Part shown: positions 14,806-36,583 of the stretch, piece by piece
How the letters are laid out: each line of letters opens with the position of its first letter
Position numbering within the stretch: the first letter of the stretch is position 1
Assembly: GCF_000015045.1 (NCBI RefSeq)
Contig: NC_008607.1
Coordinates: 62,001 to 126,000, forward strand
Length of the DNA: 64,000 nucleotides
Direction: 5' to 3'
Origin: Pelobacter propionicus DSM 2379
GTDB lineage: Bacteria > Desulfobacterota > Desulfuromonadia > Geobacterales > Pseudopelobacteraceae
Position numbers and translations under genes: made by a program
The notes under the pieces: generated by a model
Told to the model about the DNA's origin: nothing
What the model saw: only the letters and a program-made list of their open reading frames with translations
Databases searched by the model: none

Positions 14806-16014
14806 TCAGCTGTTTGGGGGTAACTTAACCACTGTCCGGGCAAATTCGCTACCAAAAGCACGGCAACCTGAAATACCGTCTTCATCAGGATTCCAGAGCA
14901 GCTTCAGTCCATCATTGGTGACTGTAAAACCACCATCTTTGAGTCTTTCTGTTATCATCTTAACTGACTCGCCACTCCAGCCATAGGCACCGAATGCTGC
15001 TGCGGTTTTATTCTTGAACCCCAATCCCCTGATTTCCTCAAGGATTCCGGCAATTGCGGAAAGAATACCCTTGTTGATTGTCGGCGAACCGACCAGTATT
15101 GCCTTTGATCTGAACACTTCCGTGATGATGTCATTTTTGTCGGCACGCGAGGCATTGTAGATCTTGACCAGCACATCGGGATCTTCCTCTGTAATGCCAT
15201 GCGCGATGGCCTCTGCCATTTTCCTGGTTGCATCCCACATGGAGTCATAAATAATGGTGATCTGGTTTTCCTGATAGCTGGCAGACCACTCCAGGTATTT
15301 GGTAACGATCTGCAAAGGATTGTCACGCCAGATAACGCCATGACTTGTGCAGATCATGTCCAGCGGCAGATTCAGACTGACGAATTCCTTGATTTTCCTG
15401 TCAACAAACGAGCTGAAAGGCGTAAGGATGTTGGAGTAATACTTGATGCACTCCTGTAATAATTCCGGCTGGTCAACAAGGTCGTTAAAGAGCTTTTCGG
15501 TTGCGTAATGCTGTCCAAAGGCATCCGTGCTGAAGAGAACATTATCTCCAGTCAGATAACAGAACATGCTGTCCGGCCAGTGCAGCATCGGTGCTTCGAT
15601 AAAGATCAGCTCTTTGCTTCCCAGGCTTAGCCGGTCACCGGTCTTTACCACCTTGAAGTTCCAATCCTGATGGTATTGTCCCTTCAGGGACTTAACCGCA
15701 TTGGCAGTGCAGTAGATGGGAGTATCCGGAATAAGACGCATAAGTTCCGGTAAGGCACCGCTATGGTCTATCTCTCCATGATTTACGATAACGTAATCAA
15801 TTATATTCAAATCGATTTCTTTTTGCAGATTCTGGACAAACTCCTTGGCAAAGGGAGCCCAGACCGTTTCGATAAGTGCAGTCTTTTCTTCGCGGACCAG
15901 ATAGGAATTGTAGGAGGAGCCTCTATGCGTAGAATACTCTTCACCATGGAACTTGCGTAATTCCCAATCCACCTTGCCAACCCACGATATATTGTTTTTG
16001 ATCGGAACACTCAT
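14806..16014 (-). CDS. fprA: Flavodiiron protein (NO/O2 reductase)
   Basis: 402 residues, the usual two-domain form. The N-terminal beta-lactamase-like domain carries the di-iron ligands H79-x-E81-x-D83-H84 (NHGEIDHSG) and later His residues (LHWPD, TSHGVIW). The C-terminal flavodoxin domain has the FMN loop [15 protein letters not shown]. There is no rubredoxin domain as in NorV. It reduces NO to N2O or O2 to water in the cytoplasm. AGGAGGGACTTGTC precedes ATG 16014. It lies next to RIC and Hcp, which supports NO detoxification. Confidence 0.93.
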
Positions 16015-16070: not shown

Positions 16071-16778
16071 TCAGAGCTGTGCCGCCTTCAAAAAGAGGAT
16101 ATTGTTTTCAAGATGGACATGTTTATGGAGATCATCCTCGAACTCCTCCAGCTTCTGATAGGTAATTCTGAAGGTATTGCAAACATCATCCGGTATTGCA
16201 TAACCTTTTGCCAGGTGACGTATGGCATGGACTGCGTCACCAATCGCTTCGTGTTCCTTTTGCAGTTTTTCAAGCGACAGCCTGATCAATTCCAAATCTT
16301 TTGTTTCCTTTGTAAGCCCTGCTATTTTGCCGGCCTCAATCCGTTTTATAGCCGGAAAAAGAATTTCTTCCTCCTCCTTAAGATGCGGTACCATGTCAGT
16401 TACTATTTTTCCAAATATGGAAGCTATTTCATATAACTCGGGATGATGGCCGCCATGTACTCCTGCTATTTTATTGGCATAAGCTGCGATCTGCTCCATG
16501 TTTTCGTTAAGATAGGCATGGTGGGTGTTGACAATATAGTCGGCCAGAAAAGGCAGTGCCCAGGCCGTATAGTTCTGACTGCGTTCCACCGGCTGGTTTT
16601 TGATTGACTCCAGTTCTTCCTCAATTATTTTCTGATCTATTCCTTTTTCAGTGCATGATGCTGCAAGAGAGACCTGGCCACCGCAGCAAAAATCAATACC
16701 GTGTTTTTCGAAAACCTTGGCGGTCCTGAAATCAGCTGCGACTATTTCTCCAACACTGCTATTCGAGGTTACTTTCAT
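16071..16778 (-). CDS. ric: Iron-sulfur cluster repair di-iron protein RIC (YtfE/ScdA)
   Basis: 235 residues. N-terminal DUF542 domain with the DFCCGG motif (29-34), then a hemerythrin-like four-helix domain with the HxxxE/His ligands (NTHHAYLNENM, GGHHPELYEI, PHLKEEEEILFP, KLQKEHEAIG, HKHVHLENNILF). RIC repairs Fe-S clusters damaged by NO or oxidants. It is 56 bp from the flavodiiron gene and downstream of the PAS gene, probably one transcript. Confidence 0.94.
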   Translation of the reverse strand: MKVTSNSSVGEIVAADFRTAKVFEKHGIDFCCGGQVSLAASCTEKGIDQKIIEEELESIKNQPVERSQNYTAWALPFLADYIVNTHHAYLNENMEQIAAYANKIAGVHGGHHPELYEIASIFGKIVTDMVPHLKEEEEILFPAIKRIEAGKIAGLTKETKDLELIRLSLEKLQKEHEAIGDAVHAIRHLAKGYAIPDDVCNTFRITYQKLEEFEDDLHKHVHLENNILFLKAAQL

Positions 16779-16838: not shown

Positions 16839-17276
16839 TTACTTTGAGTCATGGTCAGCACATTTTGCCAGGCAAATGGATAACTTTTCCTTCAGCTCTT
16901 TTTCTTTATTCCATCTTTCTGTCACATCACGCATAATTGCAGCACATCCTTGAATATTATTCTTTTCGTCACGCAGCAAAATCATGCTGAATTCCAGAGA
17001 GACACGACTGCCGTCCTTTTTGACTCCAGGTGAGGATAACAGCCCTGTTTTGTATTTTGTCTCCCCTGTTGCCATTACCCGCCAGTAACCATCCCAGTGC
17101 CTTCCCCTCAGGTTTTCCGGAATGATTAGGTCCAGCGATTGTCCGAGTGCCTCGGTTACAGTGTGACCGAAGAGACGCTCTGCCCCGCTGTTCCAGAAAG
17201 TGATAACGCCTTCTTTATCTGATATGAGAATCGCTTCCGGAGCATCGTTGATCAACTTCTCCAGGTAAATGTCCAT
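16839..17276 (-). CDS. Stand-alone PAS domain protein
   Basis: 145 residues with one PAS domain (APEAILISDKEGVITFWNSG...LFGHTVTEALGQSLDLIIPE...GCAAIMRDVTERW) and a short Cys/His C-terminal helix (SICLAKCADHD). There is no kinase, cyclase or DNA-binding output, so it may act by protein contact. GGAGGTGAT precedes ATG 17276. An FNR-like box is 69 bp upstream. Its place before ric and the flavodiiron gene suggests a sensor role in the NO response. Confidence 0.82.
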   Translation of the reverse strand: MDIYLEKLINDAPEAILISDKEGVITFWNSGAERLFGHTVTEALGQSLDLIIPENLRGRHWDGYWRVMATGETKYKTGLLSSPGVKKDGSRVSLEFSMILLRDEKNNIQGCAAIMRDVTERWNKEKELKEKLSICLAKCADHDSK

Positions 17277-17468: not shown

Positions 17469-19070
17469 CTAACCCAACATTGCTTTCATGTCTGCCTCTA
17501 CAGTTGTAATAGGCCCTATGTTGAAGTTCTCAACCAGGAAGTTAAGGACATTAGGTGTTATGAATGCAGGTAGTGACGGGCCAATCTTGATATTTTTGAT
17601 GCCAAGATGCAGCAGGGTCAGGAGAATGACAACCGCTTTCTGCTCGTACCAAGACAGTACCATGGAGAGTGGAAGGTCATTGACTCCACACTTAAAGGCG
17701 TCAGCCAGAGCAACGGCGATCTGGATGGCAGAATAGGCGTCGTTGCATTGACCGACGTCTAATAGTCGAGGAATGCCGCCGATGTCACCGAATTCGAGCT
17801 TATTAAAACGATACTTTCCACAAGCCAACGTCAGAATGACAGTATCCTTTGGAGCTTTTTCGGCAAACTCGGTGTAATAGTTGCGCCCGGATTTTGCCCC
17901 ATCGCAGCCACCTACCAAGAAAAAGTGCCTGATTTGCCCGGCTTTCACAGCAGCTATGACTTTATCAGCTACTCCCAGTACGGCATTATGACCAAAACCA
18001 GTCAGGATTTCCTGGCCAGGATTTTCCGGTAATGCCGGGCACTCAAGAGCTTTGTTGATAACTGCAGAGAAGTCCCATCCATCAATATGCTTGATACCAG
18101 GCCATGCTACCAATCCCCAGGTAAATAGTCGATCAGTATAAGAATCGGACGGCCTTTGGATGCAGTTTGTGTTGAAGATTATTGCTCCGGGGAAATTTAC
18201 GAATTCTTTAGCCTGGTCTTGCCAAGCTCCGCCGAAATTGCCAACAAGATGGCTGTATTTTTTTAGCCCTGGATAGCCGTGGGCAGGAAGCATTTCACCA
18301 TGGGTATAGACATTGATGCCTTTACCATCGGTTTGCTTCAGTAATTCTTCTAGCATCTTAAGGTCATGACCTGAGACAAGTATGGCTTTGCCGGCTTTAG
18401 TGCCAAGTTGCACAGGAGTTGGAACAGGATGCCCGTAAGTATCTGTATGGGCAGCATTGAGAAGTCCCATAACGGCTAGGTTCTGTTTACCACATTCCAT
18501 TGCCAGGCCAACGAAGTCCATCAGTCCCAGGCTGGAATCGGTTGTTGCTGCTAACGCCTTTTGAAAAAATGCCATGACTTCGTCATCACTTCTGCCAAGG
18601 ATCATGGCGTGATCCATATAAGCGGCCATTCCCTTAAGACCATAGATGAGGATTTCAATCACGGAACGAATGTCTTCGTTGATATGCTGGGTATTTATTC
18701 CATGCTGCTCACCCTGGGCTATCATGCCAGGCAGATCTTCAGCCGGTTTCCAGCTTGCTACAGTTCCATCGATAGTAACACCAGAGAGTGTTTTGGCTTT
18801 TTCTTTCAGTTCATAGCAACGCTTAATCAAGCCACCTATCCGGGTTGGTTCAAAATCCACATTGGTTACTGTTGTAAATAGGCCCTCAATAGTAAATCGA
18901 TCTATTTCAGCATTGCGGCCAGCCTTATTAGCATACAAAGCCAGACTCTTCAGACCATAGATCAAATGATCCTGTAATGCTGCAACATCAGGTTTCTTGC
19001 CACAAACACCGGAAATATTACAACCGGTTCCGTTTGCTGTTTGCTCGCATTGATTACAAAGCATGCTCAT
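17469..19070 (-). CDS. hcp: Hybrid cluster protein (hydroxylamine/NO reductase)
   Basis: 533 residues. N-terminal cluster motif MLCNQCEQTANGTGCN...GVCGK and hybrid-cluster ligands including HGEMLPAHGYPGL, FNTNCIQ, GGCDGAKSGR, TLACGKYRFN and DVGQCNDAYSA. Hcp removes NO (and can reduce hydroxylamine) in the cytoplasm. AAAAGGGGGA precedes ATG 19070. It is separated by a terminator from the PAS-ric-fprA unit. A palindrome in its promoter region may be an NO- or oxygen-responsive site. Confidence 0.96.
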   Translation of the reverse strand: MSMLCNQCEQTANGTGCNISGVCGKKPDVAALQDHLIYGLKSLALYANKAGRNAEIDRFTIEGLFTTVTNVDFEPTRIGGLIKRCYELKEKAKTLSGVTIDGTVASWKPAEDLPGMIAQGEQHGINTQHINEDIRSVIEILIYGLKGMAAYMDHAMILGRSDDEVMAFFQKALAATTDSSLGLMDFVGLAMECGKQNLAVMGLLNAAHTDTYGHPVPTPVQLGTKAGKAILVSGHDLKMLEELLKQTDGKGINVYTHGEMLPAHGYPGLKKYSHLVGNFGGAWQDQAKEFVNFPGAIIFNTNCIQRPSDSYTDRLFTWGLVAWPGIKHIDGWDFSAVINKALECPALPENPGQEILTGFGHNAVLGVADKVIAAVKAGQIRHFFLVGGCDGAKSGRNYYTEFAEKAPKDTVILTLACGKYRFNKLEFGDIGGIPRLLDVGQCNDAYSAIQIAVALADAFKCGVNDLPLSMVLSWYEQKAVVILLTLLHLGIKNIKIGPSLPAFITPNVLNFLVENFNIGPITTVEADMKAMLG

Positions 19071-19164: not shown

Positions 19165-19731
19165 TTATAGCCAATGCTCGGGATAGGAACGGTGATAAAC
19201 CAGGTTATTAGTAATGATTGCCGTAGCCAGAAGGATCAGGGCTCCTGCCAATACCGGCAAAAGGATATACTCGGGGCCAACGGCACTCTGCACACCGATA
19301 AGAGCGGTGGCTCCACCTGGCGGATGCGTAGTGTGTGTCAGATTCATTACAAAAATGGCCAGACCGACACTAATTGCCATACTCAATGGCGTAGACCCGA
19401 AAATGGCAACGATAATCACAGCCACCACAGCGGAGACAAGATGACCTCCAACCAGATTACGCGGCTGCGACAGCGGCGATTCAGTGGCACCAAAGAGAAG
19501 AACCGCTGAAGCTCCGAAAGAGCCGATCAGCAAGGGATGGCCGACCATTATCGTTACTTCGCAAATTGCCAAGATACCGACTGTAGCACTAATAAAACTC
19601 CAAATGGCATAACGCAGAGACATTTGTGGCCTAGCCCCAAGAATTGGTGCCCGACAATTCTGAGGCAATCTGGCCAGCCTTTTATTAATAGCAAGGTCAT
19701 TCTTTATAAATGTCGCAATACGCCTTTTCAT
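19165..19731 (-). CDS. HPP family membrane protein
   Basis: 188 residues with four membrane helices and the family signature THPPGGATALIG. N-terminal ~40 residues are basic and cytosolic. HPP proteins include nitrite channels of chloroplasts and cyanobacteria; here the gene follows nrfHA and a NapH-like gene, so nitrite uptake or efflux is a reasonable inference. No CBS domains are present. Confidence 0.85.
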   Translation of the reverse strand: MKRRIATFIKNDLAINKRLARLPQNCRAPILGARPQMSLRYAIWSFISATVGILAICEVTIMVGHPLLIGSFGASAVLLFGATESPLSQPRNLVGGHLVSAVVAVIIVAIFGSTPLSMAISVGLAIFVMNLTHTTHPPGGATALIGVQSAVGPEYILLPVLAGALILLATAIITNNLVYHRSYPEHWL

Positions 19732-19749: not shown

Positions 19750-20739
19750 TCAATGCCTTAGATACGGCACAAGCGGAATAAGCTGCTGATAATCGGTAAA
19801 ACGCAACGATGTATACCAGTTGCCACCAAGCATTCCTGCCACGATTACAGTCATAAAAATAAACACCAATACTAAAGGAAAAATCCACTTACTTAAGGGC
19901 TTGTTCCAAAAAAACGGCTGCATGGCGAGCACATTTTGCTCCGGGCAGTTCGCCACACAGGAGAGACACCCTGTACACTCCGGAGATGAGACTGTTTTAC
20001 AGGAATGAACCGGCAGATCTGATGGACACACAGCAGAGCATCGCTTACAACCTGTACAACCAGAAATATTACGTCTTATTTTGAAAGGACTTATGTAACT
20101 TGCCAAGCCCAACAATGCTCCATAAGGGCATAGATACCGGCACCAGAACATCTTGTAAAGCAGCGACAATATAGCCAGGCTAGCCAGAACCAGCATTGTA
20201 GTTATAGACATGCGTGTGAAGAAATGTAGCATCTTTACATCACTGACCGCCCAGTAGGGAGCATCAAGGAATTCTGCCAGCGCGTCGATCGACATGTCCA
20301 GCAGGATGAACTTGATGAATAACAGCAGTAACAGGTACTTGATGCCTCGTAACAACAAGTCAAGCCAGCGCCAGATTCTGAAATTACGGCCAAACAAGCT
20401 TCTCCCCAGCTTTTGTGCGCCTTCTGATATCGTGCCGACAGGACAAAGCCAGGAGCAGAACGATTTCTTGGCAAGCAGGCTCATCAGCAGAATCGCCAGG
20501 AAGATAACCAGTGCCGCAGGATGGACCGGATGAACTGTTCCGGAGAGCAGCCAATACTTAAGACTGGTCAAGGCTCCGATTGGCAAGAATCCTTCTACGC
20601 CCGGCGGACGGGAAACCAATGGAGCGGCTGCGCCGCTTTCAACCGAGTTGACAAACAAACCAAAACGGATGCCGATGCCGATCACCCAAAACATAAAACA
20701 ACACTGTACAATTGTACGTATGTTACTTACGGATTGCAT
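19750..20739 (-). CDS. NapH/CcoG-like membrane 4Fe-4S protein
   Basis: About 329 residues from ATG 20739 (the frame to 20787 would begin inside a hairpin). Several membrane helices carry paired CxxxCP motifs (SWLCPVGT, CRYLCPYGALLG), followed by two ferredoxin-type [4Fe-4S] motifs (CTGCKRCSAVCPSDLP and CTGCLSCVANCPEQN) and a C-terminal helix. It resembles NapH and the C-terminal part of NosR. Placed after nrfA, it may pass quinol electrons to nitrite reduction or take part in maturation. Confidence 0.85.
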   Translation of the reverse strand: MQSVSNIRTIVQCCFMFWVIGIGIRFGLFVNSVESGAAAPLVSRPPGVEGFLPIGALTSLKYWLLSGTVHPVHPAALVIFLAILLMSLLAKKSFCSWLCPVGTISEGAQKLGRSLFGRNFRIWRWLDLLLRGIKYLLLLLFIKFILLDMSIDALAEFLDAPYWAVSDVKMLHFFTRMSITTMLVLASLAILSLLYKMFWCRYLCPYGALLGLASYISPFKIRRNISGCTGCKRCSAVCPSDLPVHSCKTVSSPECTGCLSCVANCPEQNVLAMQPFFWNKPLSKWIFPLVLVFIFMTVIVAGMLGGNWYTSLRFTDYQQLIPLVPYLRH

Positions 20740-20765
20740 TGAAAACAAACTTTTCTCTCTTAGGC

Positions 20766-20796
20766 AGTTCCTGAGTGGCTGATTCACTCAGGAACT
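20766..20796. terminator. Hairpin between nrfA and the NapH-like gene
   Basis: Perfect 12-bp stem AGTTCCTGAGTG / CACTCAGGAACT with a 7-nt loop, 14 bp beyond the nrfA stop. No long T run follows, so it may stabilise mRNA or attenuate rather than stop transcription. Confidence 0.5.
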
Positions 20797-22209
20797 CAGG
20801 ATTTTTATACCTACTTTTCTGCATAAGGATCCTTGATTTCATGTTTTGGCTTGAACATAAGCTTTTTTGTGCCCCGATTGTTTGTGTACTTGGTTAATTC
20901 CAGATCGATCTTGATTGGGACAGTAACTCCAACTTTTGTTAGTGCCTGCCGAAGCAAAGCCTCGGCTTTGCCAGCGTGGTTGCCGGCGTCACTAAGGATG
21001 CGCATCGCCTCGCTGGGGTTATGGAAACCGGTTGAATTTTCGGCACCAATGAATGCAACCCGGTAAAAGGCTTCTTCATAATGGTTTTTAGCCTGGGCAT
21101 AGAGCTCTTTGTCGATCTGTTTACCAGCGGCCTGGGCCTTGTTGGCCATCTCGAACAGTTTTGCCACGGTTGCTGTTGAGTAGCCAGAGCGGATAAATTG
21201 GGACATAGACCGATCCTGGATGGCGAATATTTGGCTTCTCAACCATTCGGGCGATTCTGTATGACACTGCTGGCAAGCTTTCAGATCGTTCTTTAATGGG
21301 CTCATGATCCGGTGGTCAGACACTTTCCTGCTTCCCACCTTGGTGTAAGGCATGTGGCAGTCAGAACAGGCGACACCGGCTTGCCAGTGGACACTGTTGT
21401 TGGAGAATAGTTCAAACTCAGGATGACGAACAAAGCCGAGCTTAAATCCTGTGACACTCTGGGTCCACTCGCCATTTTCGGGATTGCTACGAACTTTTTT
21501 GATGATGTTCTCAATAGTTATATTACCCCATTTGCTTCCATCCCACGGAAAGACGACATCGGTGGACTTCATTTCTGCATCCTTGGGAATATTGTAGGTA
21601 ACGTGACACTGAGCGCAAACCAGAGTCCTCTTGTCCTGGTGGGTCAACTTGGACTGATCGACGCCGAGCTTATCCAGTGCCTTACCGAGGGTAAACCCGC
21701 GAGAGATTCGCAGTGACATATCCTTGTTGTTGTGGCAGTCGATACAGGCTACTCCGAGTGTCTGGTGTTCTTTGGGAATCTTACTAAGTACTTCCTTGTA
21801 TTCCATGGAGAAGTAATTCTTACCCATTTCTTTTTGCAAAAGTGGAGCATATGGAGTTTTACAGGTCAAGCAGGACCCACCAGCCTTGTACCGTCCCGGG
21901 TCAACATCCAGTTGATCCTGTATCATGTGGAGATGTCCCCGCGGCTCCTTGTATTCCGATCCAAAGGCCCAACCATTGTAGAGTAGCGCGAGAAAAGGGT
22001 ATTCATCGAGTTTATCGGGCCGTTCTTCTCCTACATCGTATCCACGCTTATATCTGCTTTTGCCTGCAGGGGTTGGTTCACCGGTTTTTTTCCAGAGGTC
22101 GTATTCCACCGGATAGACCTTTCCCCATTGGGCTGGATCAATCGTCCCATCGGCTATCTCAGCAGTTTTCACAGATTCTGCTTTCTTTGGGGCACAACCG
22201 TAACAGACC

Positions 22210-23519
22210 TTTGAAAAACTCCCCGATTTTCTCCCTGCCTTCTTCCTTGGCGTTTTTCTCGAGTTGTCTGGGAAGGATTGATGGCTTTTCAGGTCGCTTT
22301 TTCTGCTCTTTGGCTCGTTATCTGGTTCGTTTTTGCCCTTTTTGCATGCCATTTTGGCAGTTCGGGCGCATCGCTCCTACGCTTGGGCAATGAGATTTCT
22401 GAGCTTGACCAGATTGAAACATCCAGCGGCCAGACTGAAGTAGAATTTGATCTTCTCAAGCCCGACATGCCTGAGCTTACGGAATCCAGCAATGACCTTG
22501 GCCCAGCCGAAGAATTCTTCGATCTTCTTCCGATCCTTCAGGCTTTGCCGGTAGCTGGCATGCCGGGTGGTGCGGCCATCTATCGCCGATCCCTTCTTCT
22601 TGCTGGCAACATGCGGGGTGACGTTGATTTCTCGCATGTCCTGAACAAAGTCGGAAGTGTCATATGCCTTATCGGCAGCCACGGTGATACGCTTGTTCCG
22701 GTTGCCCTTCTGACGCTTCGTCATCTTCTTGGCAGCACGACGCTCAGCCTTGCCATCGGCGTGGGTTGCCTCAATCTGGGTGACAAAGCCATTATCGTTT
22801 TCGGTCATGGCATGCCCCATGACACAGAGCTTGGCGGATGCTCCCTTGCTCTTCTTGTAGAGCCGGGCGTCCGGGTCGGTTTTTGACTGGTGCGTCTTGT
22901 TGGAAAATTTCTCTCCCTTGAAATCGCCGGCAGGCTTGTCGTCATCGCTGCCATCCTTGCGGCGGAAGCTCTTGATGGAAGCCAGCGACTCAAGCAGGGT
23001 GCCGTCAACGGAGAAGTGGTCGTTGGAGAGCAGCCCCCTCTTCTCGGCCTGGCTCTTGACCTCTTCCAGAAACCGAGAACCGATATCTGCCCGGATCAGG
23101 CGGTCCTGATTGCAGGAGAATACGCTCTGGTCCCAGACCTTGTCGTCGATTGAAAGACCAATGAACCAGCGGAAGGCCATGTCGGAATTGATACGGTCCA
23201 TAAGGGCGACATGACTGCGGACCGAGTACACGAACTGAAGCACCAGTCCTCTCAGCAGGTATTCAGGCGGTATGGACGGTCTACCGGTAGATGAGTACAG
23301 GGAATCGAATTCACGGTCGAGCTTTGAAAGAGCCGTATCCACCAGGGGCTTCAGCGAGCGAAGCGGGTGGTTCTTGGAAACGAACTGCTCTGTGGTGACA
23401 TAGACGAACAGAGGACCATTTGATTCAGCAGAGCCGCGCATAACTTTCTCCAGTAATAACGGTGAGTTATGCGCAAAACACTACCACAAATCGGGGCTTT
23501 TCTCTATTTGTTTTTCAAA
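22210..23519. mobile_element. IS5-type insertion sequence inside nrfA
   Basis: 1310 bp. Inverted ends TTTGAAAAAC (22210-22219) and GTTTTTCAAA (23510-23519), each followed further in by a CCCCGATTT-type block. It is flanked by a perfect 4-bp duplication GACC at 22206-22209 and 23520-23523. The clean duplication and uninterrupted transposase indicate a recent insertion. Confidence 0.9.
22377..23441 (-). CDS. IS5/IS1182-superfamily transposase
   Basis: 354 residues. N-terminal DUF772-type domain (TGRPSIPPEYLLRGLVLQF...HVALMDRINSDMAFRWFIGL) and a DDE domain (HFSVDGTLLESLAS, VAADKAYDTSDFVQDMRE, RKKIEEFFGWAKVIAGFRKLRH with the catalytic Glu). Intact with its own start; oriented like nrfA. Length fits IS5-type rather than the longer IS1182 enzymes. 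Confidence 0.92.
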   Translation of the reverse strand: MRGSAESNGPLFVYVTTEQFVSKNHPLRSLKPLVDTALSKLDREFDSLYSSTGRPSIPPEYLLRGLVLQFVYSVRSHVALMDRINSDMAFRWFIGLSIDDKVWDQSVFSCNQDRLIRADIGSRFLEEVKSQAEKRGLLSNDHFSVDGTLLESLASIKSFRRKDGSDDDKPAGDFKGEKFSNKTHQSKTDPDARLYKKSKGASAKLCVMGHAMTENDNGFVTQIEATHADGKAERRAAKKMTKRQKGNRNKRITVAADKAYDTSDFVQDMREINVTPHVASKKKGSAIDGRTTRHASYRQSLKDRKKIEEFFGWAKVIAGFRKLRHVGLEKIKFYFSLAAGCFNLVKLRNLIAQA

Positions 23520-23617
23520 GACCTGGTAACTGATCGTTAACGCCGCCAGGAGTACTACAATGGTAAAGCTTTTAAACAAATTCATAATATTCTCCTCTAC
23601 TTGAGATTAATTGTTGA

Positions 23618-24076
23618 TTATCGAGTAGCAACCGTCCCAGTAAGGCGATGACGTAACTGTCGATGACAGCCCCAACACTGCCGTGTTGTATCCATTTGCG
23701 AAACCGTTTCAGCGTGACATCTGATGCAATTGCTCTGAACAACCTTTGCACCATGACCTGACAGGGTTATCCGCTCAGGTACCATCCCTGAATGAAATGA
23801 GAGTACATCTTTCATGCCGTCTATCGATTTCCAGACATAGTGTAACAGTGTATTACTATTCGGCAGATGACAGTCAACACAACGAATACGCCTATGAGCG
23901 CCGGCATGACTCCAGGCTGAGTGTTGTTCCTCCATGACATGACAGCTGGCACAGAAAGTTGGGGATTCTGATTTTGCTAATAGTTGTGGCGGTCCTAAAA
24001 GCAGGAAGGCAAAAACCGCTAGCCCGGAAAAAATGATTATTGTGATGATAGTGTATTTGGATTTCAGTAATCGCAT
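23618..24076 (-). CDS. nrfH: Cytochrome c nitrite reductase small subunit NrfH
   Basis: 152 residues from ATG 24076 (AGGTGAAAAGA upstream). One N-terminal membrane helix (TIITIIIFSGLAVFAFLLLG) anchors a NapC/NirT-type domain with four heme motifs: CASCH, CVDCH, CIRCH and CWGCH. NrfH takes electrons from the menaquinol pool and hands them to NrfA. It ends 32 bp before the original nrfA start, so nrfHA was an operon before the IS5 insertion. NrfH itself is intact. Confidence 0.93.
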   Translation of the reverse strand: MRLLKSKYTIITIIIFSGLAVFAFLLLGPPQLLAKSESPTFCASCHVMEEQHSAWSHAGAHRRIRCVDCHLPNSNTLLHYVWKSIDGMKDVLSFHSGMVPERITLSGHGAKVVQSNCIRCHAETVSQMDTTRQCWGCHRQLRHRLTGTVATR

Positions 24077-24348
24077 TCTTTTCACCTGATGTTTTGACAT
24101 TTTATTACCGGTAATCCTCAATATTTTCAGATGAGGAGAGATCATGGTCACACGAACAAATATTAACCTCTGAAAATCATTCAAACTTATTATGTCGAAG
24201 ATTCGAGAAAAGAAGGTTATGGATCAGTGACAATGCACTTTATGTATTATACAGCAGAAGCTTATGATTATTTTGATCTAGATCAATTGCAGATAAATAA
24301 TCTAAAAATTATCTTATGTAAAATTTAGTTAGAGCGGATACTACTTTT
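24077..24348. promoter_or_regulatory. nrfH upstream region with perfect FNR box
   Basis: A 272-bp gene-free stretch. It holds TTGATCTAGATCAA at 24273-24286, a perfect FNR consensus (TTGAT-N4-ATCAA, fully palindromic), about 197 bp before the nrfH start. Anaerobic activation of nrfHA is the natural reading, although the distance is long and an unseen promoter must lie between. Confidence 0.55.
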
Positions 24349-24356
24349 AAAATAAT

Positions 24357-25437
24357 CGGAACTATCACCAATAAAAAGGCCATGATGACTTAATCTGTCT
24401 TATGCCTGTTGTAACATGCTCTCATAAGGAGGGCATGCCATGAATATTCAAGAGTTTCGCAAACAGTTTCCCGATGAGGAAACCTGCCATCGCTACCTGG
24501 AGCAGATGATTTGGCCAACTGGCCGTATCTGCCCTCACTGCGGAGGTATAAAGTCCTGGAGCATATTGGCAGAGAGCAAGCGGTTTGAACTATATGAATG
24601 TGCTTCCTGTAGCAAGCAATTCACAGTCACCACCAAGACTCCGCTGCATAGCACCAAGTTACCGCTGAGGACATGGTTTATGGCCATGTATTTCATGATC
24701 AACTCCAGCAAGGGTATTTCATCCATTTTCCTTGCTAAGTGGATCGGCACTTCCCAGAAAACAGCCTGGAAGGTGGGCCATGCCGTTCGGGCACTCATGG
24801 CCTCACAGGCAGATGCAATGCCTGGCCTTGCCGGGATCGTTGAACTTGACGAGAAATATCTTGGCGGCAAACCCCGCTACCAAAAAGACGTCAAACACAA
24901 GCGCGGCAAAGGCACTGCAAAATCATGTGTATTCGTTGCCGCAAGCCGTGATGGTCATGTACGGGCAAGCGTTGTAGCAAACGATAGTTACTCAGAACTG
25001 GCTCCCAAGGTTAACCGGTTTGTTGATACATCAGCCGATCTTATGACAGACCAGCTTTCCGTCTATCAGATGATTGCCGAAGACTATGCCAGCCACTCAT
25101 CCGTGAATCATGGCAACAAGGAATACGCAAACGGAGACGTCCACAACAACACGGCTGAATCATTCAATGCCATTCTTGAACGGGCTAAGCAGGGTGTATT
25201 TCACTTCCTGAGCAAAATGCACACTCAGCGGTACATCAGCGAGGTGGTATTCCGCTGGAACCATCGTTACCCGGCAAGAGAAGTATCAAAAAACGGCACG
25301 AAAAAGATTATCTACAAAGCAAAGCCGATACTTGAGCAACTTCGATCACTGCTCCAGTATGCAGTTGGAACTCAACTCCGAAGAACACATGCTGGTGGGA
25401 TCTTTACACCAAGACCTGCTTTTCGGTGATAGTTCCG
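24357..25437. mobile_element. IS1595-type insertion sequence
   Basis: 1081 bp with perfect 13-bp inverted ends CGGAACTATCACC (24357-24369) and CGGTGATAGTTCCG-side copy (25425-25437), flanked by an exact 8-bp target duplication AAAATAAT (24349-24356 and 25438-25445). Eight-base duplications are typical of the IS1595 family. It separates the nrf promoter region from the TetR/efflux unit. Confidence 0.93.
24440..25429 (+). CDS. IS1595-family transposase
   Basis: 329 residues. N-terminal zinc ribbon (CPHCGGIKSW...YECASCSKQF), then the ISXO2-like DDE/N domain (IVELDEKYLGGKPRYQKDVKHKRG, STTS-like SADLMTDQLSVY, SVNHGNKEYANGDVHNNTAESF). ATG 24440 follows GGAGG. The TGA stop lies in the right inverted end. 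Complete. Confidence 0.95.
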   Translation: MNIQEFRKQFPDEETCHRYLEQMIWPTGRICPHCGGIKSWSILAESKRFELYECASCSKQFTVTTKTPLHSTKLPLRTWFMAMYFMINSSKGISSIFLAKWIGTSQKTAWKVGHAVRALMASQADAMPGLAGIVELDEKYLGGKPRYQKDVKHKRGKGTAKSCVFVAASRDGHVRASVVANDSYSELAPKVNRFVDTSADLMTDQLSVYQMIAEDYASHSSVNHGNKEYANGDVHNNTAESFNAILERAKQGVFHFLSKMHTQRYISEVVFRWNHRYPAREVSKNGTKKIIYKAKPILEQLRSLLQYAVGTQLRRTHAGGIFTPRPAFR

Positions 25438-31216: not shown

Positions 31217-33541
31217 TGATCTGCCTCCAATAGTGCCAAGATTCTCAAAATTCGTTGCAACGATAACAAAACGAGAATAGTATTTCAAGAATGGTTTTTG
31301 ATAATTGTAACACATTGAATTTATGTATTCAGACTAACTAAAAAAAGTGATTATCATAAACGAACGTTTTCGATAAGGAGTCTCTATGCCTCGCCGCTCG
31401 ATTCTCACCGACTCAGAACGAGAAAACCTACTGGTGCCTCCAGACAGTAAAGAGGATTTGATTCAGCATTATTTCTTCAGCGAATCCGACCTCACCATTA
31501 TCCGGCAGCACCGAGGAGCTGCAAATAGGATTGGTTTTGCCGTCCAGCTTTGTTACATGAGATACCCAGGAATAATTCTCGGTACAGATGAAATCCCCCA
31601 TACCGCACTTTTGAAATTCGTTGCAAGACAACTTAACGAGTCAACCGACAAATGGAAAGAATATGGCCAGCGTTTCCAGACAAGACGAGAACATCTTGTA
31701 GAATTGCAGACTGTTTTTAAATTTAAAACTTTTGGCACTGAAGACTATCCAGTAGCTGTAGAAAGCCTTGAATCTATCGCCTGGCAAACTGACAAGGGAA
31801 TTGTGCTTGTTGAGGCGCTTATGCGGTATTTGCGTGGCCAGTCCATCCTTTTGCCTACAATTAATGTCATAGAACGTATCTGTGCCGAGGCCATTACTAA
31901 ATCAACACGGCGAATTTATGCTGCTCTCACAGAGCAACTTTCCAAGGCACAACTCCAAAATCTCGACACACTACTGAGCCTCAAGCCCGAATCGAAAGTA
32001 ACCATGCTGTCATGGCTGCGACAGCCGACGGGATCAGCCAAGGCTCGGCATATCCTTGAACATATTGAGCGTTTGCAAGCAACACGTGAACTTGGTTTGC
32101 CAGATGGGTTGGAAAAAGTAATCCACCAGAACCGGTTATTGAAAATTGCCAGGGAAGGCCGGCAAATGACCCCAGCAGATCTGGGGAAGTTTGAACAGAA
32201 CCGCCGCTACGCAACACTCACAGCCCTTGTTCTGGAACTGCAAGCAACCATTACCGATGAAATCATCGAATTGAACGATCGTATTATCGGCAGTTTATTC
32301 AGCCGAGCCAAACGCAGTCATGAACAGCAATTCCAGCAATCCGGCAAAGAAATCAATGACAAAGTCAGATTGCTCTGGAGGATTGGGCAAGCATTGATTC
32401 AGGCTAAACAGAACGGCTCAGATCCTTTCGCCGCCATTGAAAATATTATTCCTTGGGACACGTTTGCTAAAAGCATTACTGAAGCCCAATCACTTTCCCA
32501 GCCAGAGGATTTCGATTACCTGCACCTGGTCGGCGACCACTACTCTCAGATTCGTCGCTATGCACCGGTTTTTCTGGAAACGCTCCAACTGAGTTCAACT
32601 CCTGCAGCCAGAGAAATACTCGAAGCCATTGAAACACTAAAGCGGTTAAATGCTGCCAACATGCGTAAAATACCGGATGACGCTCCCACAGGCTTTGTTC
32701 GTAAGCGTTGGAAGCCGTTGGTGTTTACGGATGAAGGTGTGAATAGGCGATATTATGAACTCTGCTTACTATCTGAACTGAAGAACTCCCTTCGTTCTGG
32801 GGATGTCTGGGTACATGGTTCCAGTCAGTTCAAAGATTTCAATGAATACCTGCTGCCTGCGGACAGATATTCGGAGCTTAAAAAAGCTGAAAGCCTGGGT
32901 TTGGCTATTGACTGTGATTGTGAACGTTACCTTAATAGCCGGATGCAACTACTGACACAAAAACTGGAAACGGTAAACCAATTGGCCGCAAATGACGAAC
33001 TTCCGGAGGCAACCATCGGCAATTCTGGCTTGCGGATTTCACCTCTGACAAATGCAGTTCCGGAAGAGGCAAACAGCTTGATGAGACAGGCATATGAACT
33101 ATTGCCGCACGTCAAGATTACCGAACTATTACAGGAGGTGGATGATTGGACCGGCTTTACCCGCCATTTCTCTCACGTAAAAAGTGGTAGCGAGGCCAAA
33201 GACAAAACCTTGCTACTGACGACGATTCTGGCTGATGCAATCAACCTCGGGCTCAGCAAAATGGTTGAGTCTTGCCCCGGCACCACCTACCAGAAGCTTT
33301 CATGGCTTCAAGCCTGGTATATCCGTGATGAAACGTATTCAGCTGCCTTGGCAGATTTGGTAAACAAACAGAACCGGCATCCTTTTTCTGCGAATTGGGG
33401 AGATGGCACGACATCATCTTCAGACGGACAGCGATTCAAGGCCGGTGGGCATGCTGAACGCACCGGCTGTCAATGGGGACGTAAAAGTGTACCAGTTTCG
33501 GGAATTGAAAAGTGTACCACCCTGCTGGTTGGAGAAGCGCC

Positions 33542-35565
<2,024 letters not shown>

Positions 35566-36545
35566 GGGCACCCCTCCTTTCATAAGAAGGGATACCACTG
35601 CTTCCAGGGTGGTACACTTTTCGTTACCGCTTTTGGGACATTATTGCACTACCATTGACACCGGCCAAGTCAACCCTAAATATGGCAATGAACCTGGGGT
35701 ATTATTCTATACGCATATTTCCGACCAATATGCTCCTTTCCACACGAAGGTCATCAATGTCGGAGTTCGCGATGCCACGCATGTCTTGGATGGACTATTG
35801 TATCATGAGTCCGATTTACAGATTGAGGAGCATTATACTGATACTGCGGGTTTCACCGATCATGTATTTGCATTGATGCATTTGCTTGGTTTCCGATTCG
35901 CTCCTCGTATTCGTGATCTTGCTGAAAAGAAATTGTACATCCCTGATGGCAAGATCAAATATGCAGCAATTGATTCGCTGATAGGTGGTGCTTTGAATAT
36001 TCGGCAAATACAGAGTCATTGGGATGATATCTTGAGATCTGCCGCATCGATCAAAAATGGAGTGGTTACAGCTTCATTGCTTCTGAGAAAGATCGGAAGT
36101 TATCCAAGGCAGAATGGCTTAGCCGTTGCTCTCCGTGAGCTGGGGAAAATAGAAAGAACTTTGTTCACTTTGGATTGGTTACAGGATGTTGAATTGAGGC
36201 GTCGGGTCAATGCTGGATTAAATAAAGGGGAGGCCAAAAACGCATTGGCGCGTGCTGTGTTTTTCAATCGATTGGGAGAAATGCGTGATCGTAGTTTCGA
36301 GCATCAGCGTTATCGGGCAAGTGGTCTTAATCTGGTGGTCGCTGCAATCATTCTTTGGAATACGGTTTATCTTGAAAAAGCCATCCAGACTTTTAAGGAA
36401 AATGGCAAAGTAATCGACGACATCCTGCTCGGTAATTTGTCTCCTCTGGGATGGGAACACATCAACCTGACAGGTGACTACATATGGAAATCATCCAAAA
36501 AGACAGATAAAAGTAAATTTAGACCGTTGCGGCCATTTCAAAATC

Positions 36546-36583
36546 CTTAACGTGCTTTATAATCCGTTTTCTGTGGTGACCCC
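36546..36583. repeat. Right terminal inverted repeat of the Tn21-like unit
   Basis: CTTAACGTGC...GTGACCCC, 38 bp, immediately after (and overlapping) the tnpA stop. It differs from the Tn21 repeat, as I recall it, at about six positions. Confidence 0.75.

Follow-up and report, generated by a model that had tools for sequence, protein, structure and literature searches.

A plasmid-borne nrfA with an IS5-family element in its signal-peptide codons

Geobacter-type NrfA proteins are Ca2+-independent pentaheme nitrite reductases, two of which are available as structures (PDB 6v0a, which PMC12285233 names as the NrfA of G. lovleyi, and 8bcx), and an XXRH motif of NrfA is named in PMC11972089. The same source describes two pentaheme genes, nrfA-1 and nrfA-2, together with the octaheme gene onr in Trichlorobacter lovleyi SZ. 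For Pelobacter propionicus, passages of PMC3403914 describe a 4.0-Mbp chromosome, the plasmid pPRO1 of 202 kbp that encodes NrfA and NrfH, and the plasmid pPRO2 of 31 kbp, and the NrfA of pPRO1 is counted there among the encoded nitrite reductases. Neither "insertion element" nor "insertion sequence", "disrupted" or "interrupted" is used in the main text of that paper, and among the matches listed no passage ties a transposase to NrfA. Among the papers listed in literature searches, too, none was seen to report an IS break in the plasmid nrfA.

The window analysed here is a stretch of 64,000 nucleotides (G000:C1:62001-126000) on a 202,397-bp contig of an assembly that consists of three contigs with altogether 4,241,119 bp, the largest being 4,008,000 bp and the third 30,722 bp long. 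Gene content is among the reasons why the window almost certainly belongs to pPRO1 of Pelobacter propionicus DSM 2379. In its nrfA, an IS5-family insertion at TTAC has very likely generated a loss-of-function allele that is not old, with a chromosomal backup for nitrite ammonification; both the loss of the plasmid NrfA activity and the functional backup are what we infer from sequences. The features of the locus are compiled in Table 1.

Table 1. Features of the plasmid nrf locus (positions in the window)
Feature	Position	Strand	Evidence
nrfA 5' stub, from the start codon to codon 20 of the lipoprotein signal peptide, with the left TTAC copy as its last bases	23526..23585	-	alignment with the signal peptides of related NrfA
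4-bp target duplication, left copy (minus strand: TTAC)	23526..23529	.	comparison of IS ends
IS5-family element of 1322 bp; its 16-bp terminal inverted repeats are imperfect (14/16)	22204..23525	-	transposase model and IS ends; sole full copy in the genome
IS5-family transposase, 354 aa, ORF intact	22377..23441	-	NF033581 256.5 bits (cut-off 140); DUF772, DDE_Tnp_1
4-bp target duplication, right copy (TTAC)	22200..22203	.	comparison of IS ends
Rest of nrfA, coding for the lipobox cysteine and the mature pentaheme enzyme (4 CXXCH, 1 CXXCK), no premature stop	20811..22203	-	PF02335 543 bits; motifs
Hybrid 513-aa ORF: 49 whole IS residues (50th shared) and mature NrfA, lacking an export signal	20811..22352	-	ORF list, hydropathy
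Intact nrfH for a tetraheme quinol dehydrogenase; start codon picked by inspection	23618..24100	-	TIGR03153 150.7 bits (cut-off 134.2) for 23618-24079; four CXXCH
NapH-like ferredoxin-type membrane protein, next operon gene	19750..20787	-	TIGR02163 85.5 bits, under the cut-off of 213; position shared by 3/8 regions of other genomes
HPP-family membrane protein	19165..19731	-	PF04982 173.5 bits; clustered with nrfA in 6/8 regions of other genomes
Hybrid cluster protein (hcp)	17469..19070	-	NF003658 827 bits
PAS-domain protein, named by inspection	16839..17276	-	paralogue in the chromosomal cluster, 73% identical
RIC/YtfE-type di-iron protein	16071..16778	-	TIGR03652 241.8 bits
Flavodiiron NO reductase-like protein	14806..16014	-	NF008887 753.6 bits
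IS1595-family element as second insertion, located upstream of nrfH between copies of the 8-bp AAAATAAT duplication	24357..25437	+	family model; single copy

The element and its target site

The first-pass annotation had placed an IS5-type element inside the signal-peptide codons of nrfA, and this is borne out, as the transposase ORF scores above the cut-off of its family model; its product is 51.5% identical to an annotated ISAzs10-family transposase of Azospirillum. The dimensions that had been assigned to the element, 1310 bp with a GACC duplication, had to be corrected: GGTC/GACC lies within the terminal repeats, and it is TTAC that is duplicated. The terminal repeats CAGGTCTTTGAAAAAC and CAGACCTTTGAAAAAC form an inverted-repeat pair that runs on beyond GGTC.

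The corrected ends emerge from a comparison with related elements. In a scan that used the anchor TTGAAAA near the predicted ends and left the outer bases unconstrained, all 21 placed ends, which stem from 15 loci, have CAGNNN outside TTTGAAAA or its variant, with the CAG starting six bases outside TTTGAAAA, and at 19 of these ends NTAN lies directly outside the CAG (exceptions L047 and L079). The scan covers loci with at least one placed end, identical loci being collapsed; a separate scan with a CAG-containing pattern is biased and was left out of these counts, and a short BLAST search for IS ends gave two matches, both with CAG. Both ends could be placed in six relatives. In five of these the two 4-bp flanks agree, as ATAT in four elements and as CTAG in one, and in the sixth, L037, the flanks differ at one base. 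A 4-bp target duplication with a central TA is typical of IS5, and the TTAC/TTAC of the window fits such a target.

It is highly improbable that the initially proposed combination applies, that is, a 1310-bp element with a GACC duplication in a cell that has NO detoxification and lacks nitrite ammonification. A GGTC direct repeat does adjoin TTTGAAAAAC, and a cut at this position also restores the reading frame, but CAGNNN lies outside TTTGAAAA or its variant at every placed end of related elements, and GACC was rejected as target duplication.

Only one full copy of the element is present in the genome, plus a 33-bp end relic on the chromosome. Counting the own genome, DNA matches were found in 22 of 141 genomes of the order that were searched. 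The three best relatives outside the own genome share 74-86% of their bases with the element over 602-1149 bp and come from deltaproteobacterial genomes, including Trichlorobacter and the one other genome of the genus that was covered. The locus carries a further insertion, as the IS1595-family element with its perfect AAAATAAT duplication lies about 250 bp upstream of nrfH, where it may cut the nrfH/nrfA operon off from upstream control DNA. Elsewhere in the window (31386-36550), an IS21-type pair on the minus strand (33542-34318 and 34306-35598) appears to interrupt a Tn3-family transposase gene (model positions 2-679 of 954), the C-terminal part of which would continue in the ORF 35480-36550; the pair and this C-terminal part were assigned by inspection.

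The severed export signal and its product

The sequence agrees with the nrfA start codon that had been assigned at 23585 on the minus strand, and also the claim that removal of the IS restores an open frame is true, with the former ends as well as with the corrected ones. With the corrected ends, the joined gene has 482 codons for amino acids, its product starts with MNLFKSFTIVVLLAALTISYGCAPKK, and the empty site encodes a normal lipoprotein signal (...TISYGCAPKK) with the lipobox-type match ISYGC, in register with the signal peptides of most relatives compared and without extra residues; the signal peptide of L013 has two additional residues at one place and one residue less at another. The insertion point lies between codons 20 and 21, one glycine ahead of the presumed lipid-bearing cysteine. 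The lipobox pattern used, the old PROSITE lipoprotein rule, is matched by 24 of the 26 other aligned NrfA sequences, and the remaining two (L029, L068) are off by one position yet have the GC. As the empty site and these 24 sequences fit the pattern, NrfA of this group is likely a lipoprotein. The 1310-bp cut, in contrast, results in ...TISYQVCYGCAPKK, with four extra residues and no lipobox match, which further disfavours that reading.

The IS5-family element transposed into TTAC in the signal-peptide codons and duplicated it, so that the lipoprotein signal for export and the mature cytochrome with its five heme motifs came to lie on either side of the insert. Translation from the native nrfA start yields a 34-residue peptide that ends at a stop inside the IS. 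The mature part is preserved and, besides its PF02335 match, reaches 791 bits to the solved NrfA 6v0a and has the CXXCK motif, four CXXCH motifs and the XXRH motif, although it stays under the NCBIfam cut-offs (NF008339 210.7 of 595, TIGR03152 157 of 692.5).

The long ORF that begins inside the IS at 22352 is real in the ORF list, and its leader had rightly been ascribed to IS DNA; only the number of about 40 residues was too low, as 49 residues and two bases of codon 50 derive from the element. That this ORF lacks an export signal is supported by the hydropathy of the leader: within the first 60 residues, the maximal 11-residue Kyte-Doolittle mean is 0.56 for the hybrid, while the empty site reaches 2.82 and the chromosomal NrfA 3.23, and the IS-derived leader has a net charge of +10 in 50 residues and no hydrophobic core. 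Since the periplasm is where c-type hemes become attached, the hybrid is not expected to work as an enzyme; at most, a cytoplasmic hybrid would be formed that is unlikely to receive its hemes. The plasmid gene, as judged from its sequence, is a NrfA remnant with a severed export signal and not a working NrfA. The case is a genuine, if ordinary, IS knock-out of the plasmid nrfA, with its target site now corrected.

One could imagine that the 513-aa hybrid is made nevertheless and serves in the cytoplasm or without heme, for which the open frame and the shared orientation of transposase and nrfA may be quoted, but this is very improbable: the leader is IS-derived and strongly basic, inspection reveals no Shine-Dalgarno-like sequence directly before the ATG at 22352, the upstream GGAG precedes an ATG in another frame at 22371 (again by inspection), and a simple sigma-70 scan of 22150-24700, in itself weak evidence, gave no minus-strand site.

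Age of the insertion and origin of the locus

The gene had been described as freshly broken, and the data are compatible with this. The break is not old, but "fresh" is not demonstrable, as the genome has no second full copy of the IS and the searches gave no sibling free of it. The 462 remaining codons contain zero stops, with about three expected at 4.7% unconstrained change, and the plasmid copy differs at only 2 of the 168 sites that are invariant in 26 other sequences, both changes being mild (I to V, A to V) and their number being within the range of 0 to 6 departures in the other copies. With a mature frame without stop and so few changes at invariant sites, the insertion is, by the measure of conservation, not old, and this conservation bounds the age without dating it. 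Apart from the query, the search for pentaheme NrfA gave 32 matches; the alignment comprises 26 of them (25 from other genomes and the own chromosomal copy), with six second NrfA copies left out. The dS values of the plasmid gene are saturated versus most relatives. With L013 as outgroup, the unique replacements of the plasmid copy exceed those of each of five relatives (e.g. 29 versus 14 in L008), but with L041 and L027 as outgroups there is no consistent excess.

The nearly undecayed mature frame and the intact transposase ORF would also suit a reversible switch, with precise excision of the IS in part of the population and a plasmid nrfA that is still usable. The IS would then be a slow off-switch on a spare plasmid nitrite reductase, and excision would restore the lipoprotein NrfA under nitrite selection. 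A simple recent insertion predicts the same two features, precise excision by such IS elements is usually rare, and there is no IS-free copy in the own assembly, which would be blind to excision in a subpopulation, or in the other genome of the genus, so such a switch is very unlikely. The one other genome of the genus that was searched for an IS-free sibling has no pentaheme NrfA, and a DNA search of a plasmid collection, from which the own genome is possibly excluded, gave no near match to the locus; 17 plasmid records have a NrfA match, with at most 32.0% identity.

As to the origin of the plasmid locus, its NrfA shares up to 86% identity with NrfA proteins of other genera and 66% with the chromosomal copy, and a tree obtained with a quick method gives it no definite position. 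The order nrfH-nrfA-NapH-HPP was seen in three of eight NrfA regions of other genomes (L066, L067, L072); in L068, L069 and L070, HPP adjoins nrfA and a NapH match is lacking, L073 has nrfHA alone, and nrfHA also lies on L071, a short contig. By its gene content, the plasmid locus represents a recurring gene order that is carried beside a second NO-stress set. One of the other regions, L068 5229-15327 of genome G024, combines the two NrfA types in a single locus, where they have an nrfH each and lie about 7 kb from one another.

Chromosomal nitrite reductases and comparison with known systems

A PF02335 search of the genome points to three places. In one of them (C3:1246000-1260000), intact nrfH and nrfA genes are followed by genes for hcp, PAS, flavodiiron, RIC and HPP proteins. 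The chromosomal NrfA has 487 residues, the lipobox LAAGC and five heme motifs, and reaches 770 bits to 8bcx and 688 bits to 6v0a, both of which are deposited as ammonia-forming nitrite reductases. The third place, also on the chromosome, encodes an octaheme nitrite reductase that has eight heme motifs including one CXXCK and, by inspection, an N-terminus of the exported type, with 817 bits to PDB 8rv0 and 557 bits to the eight-heme enzyme 2zo5. The idea that NO detoxification would be left without ammonification is therefore unsupported, and at gene level a loss of ammonification by the cell is contradicted by the intact chromosomal nrfHA and octaheme genes, which also count against the corresponding part of the 1310-bp reading. 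Because of these genes, the cell probably keeps the ability to turn nitrite into ammonium, and it would be the chromosomal enzymes that maintain this ammonia-forming nitrite reduction. As neither NapA nor NarG reaches its curated cut-off in the genome, the predicted capacity is an ammonification of nitrite, not of nitrate.

Some further observations concern the chromosome. The chromosomal RIC/YtfE (L041 11690-12679, 329 aa) has a C-terminal extension that appears ferredoxin-like by inspection and that is lacking in the plasmid RIC (235 aa); such an extension is noted for P. propionicus in a passage of PMC9052748. At G000:C3:3053583-3064750, there are two molybdopterin-oxidoreductase-like matches with one in-frame TGA each, which, by inspection, are possibly selenocysteine formate dehydrogenases.

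The finding matters mainly for annotation, as gene calling yields a long NrfA of 513 aa although the frame of the exported protein is interrupted there, and the inventory in PMC3403914 lists the broken gene as a plasmid nitrite reductase. It also demonstrates that IS ends compared across relatives can correct a duplication call made by eye. Since intact chromosomal nitrite reductase genes persist, the nitrogen metabolism expected for the organism is unchanged.

Judged by size and content, the plasmid and the gene are the same as the pPRO1 and its NrfA in the passages of PMC3403914. With the known elements of the IS5 family (NCBIfam transpos_IS5_4; ISAzs10), the plasmid element has the transposase, the short terminal inverted repeats and the 4-bp duplication in common, and nothing about it is unusual. 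The mature part of the plasmid NrfA shares the CXXCK/CXXCH and XXRH motifs with the Geobacter-type enzymes (6v0a, 8bcx), but its export signal has been severed by the IS. The overall inventory, two pentaheme NrfA and one octaheme enzyme, is like that of T. lovleyi SZ as given in PMC11972089, with the difference that here one pentaheme copy is plasmid-borne and broken, and that NapA and NarG are below the cut-off.
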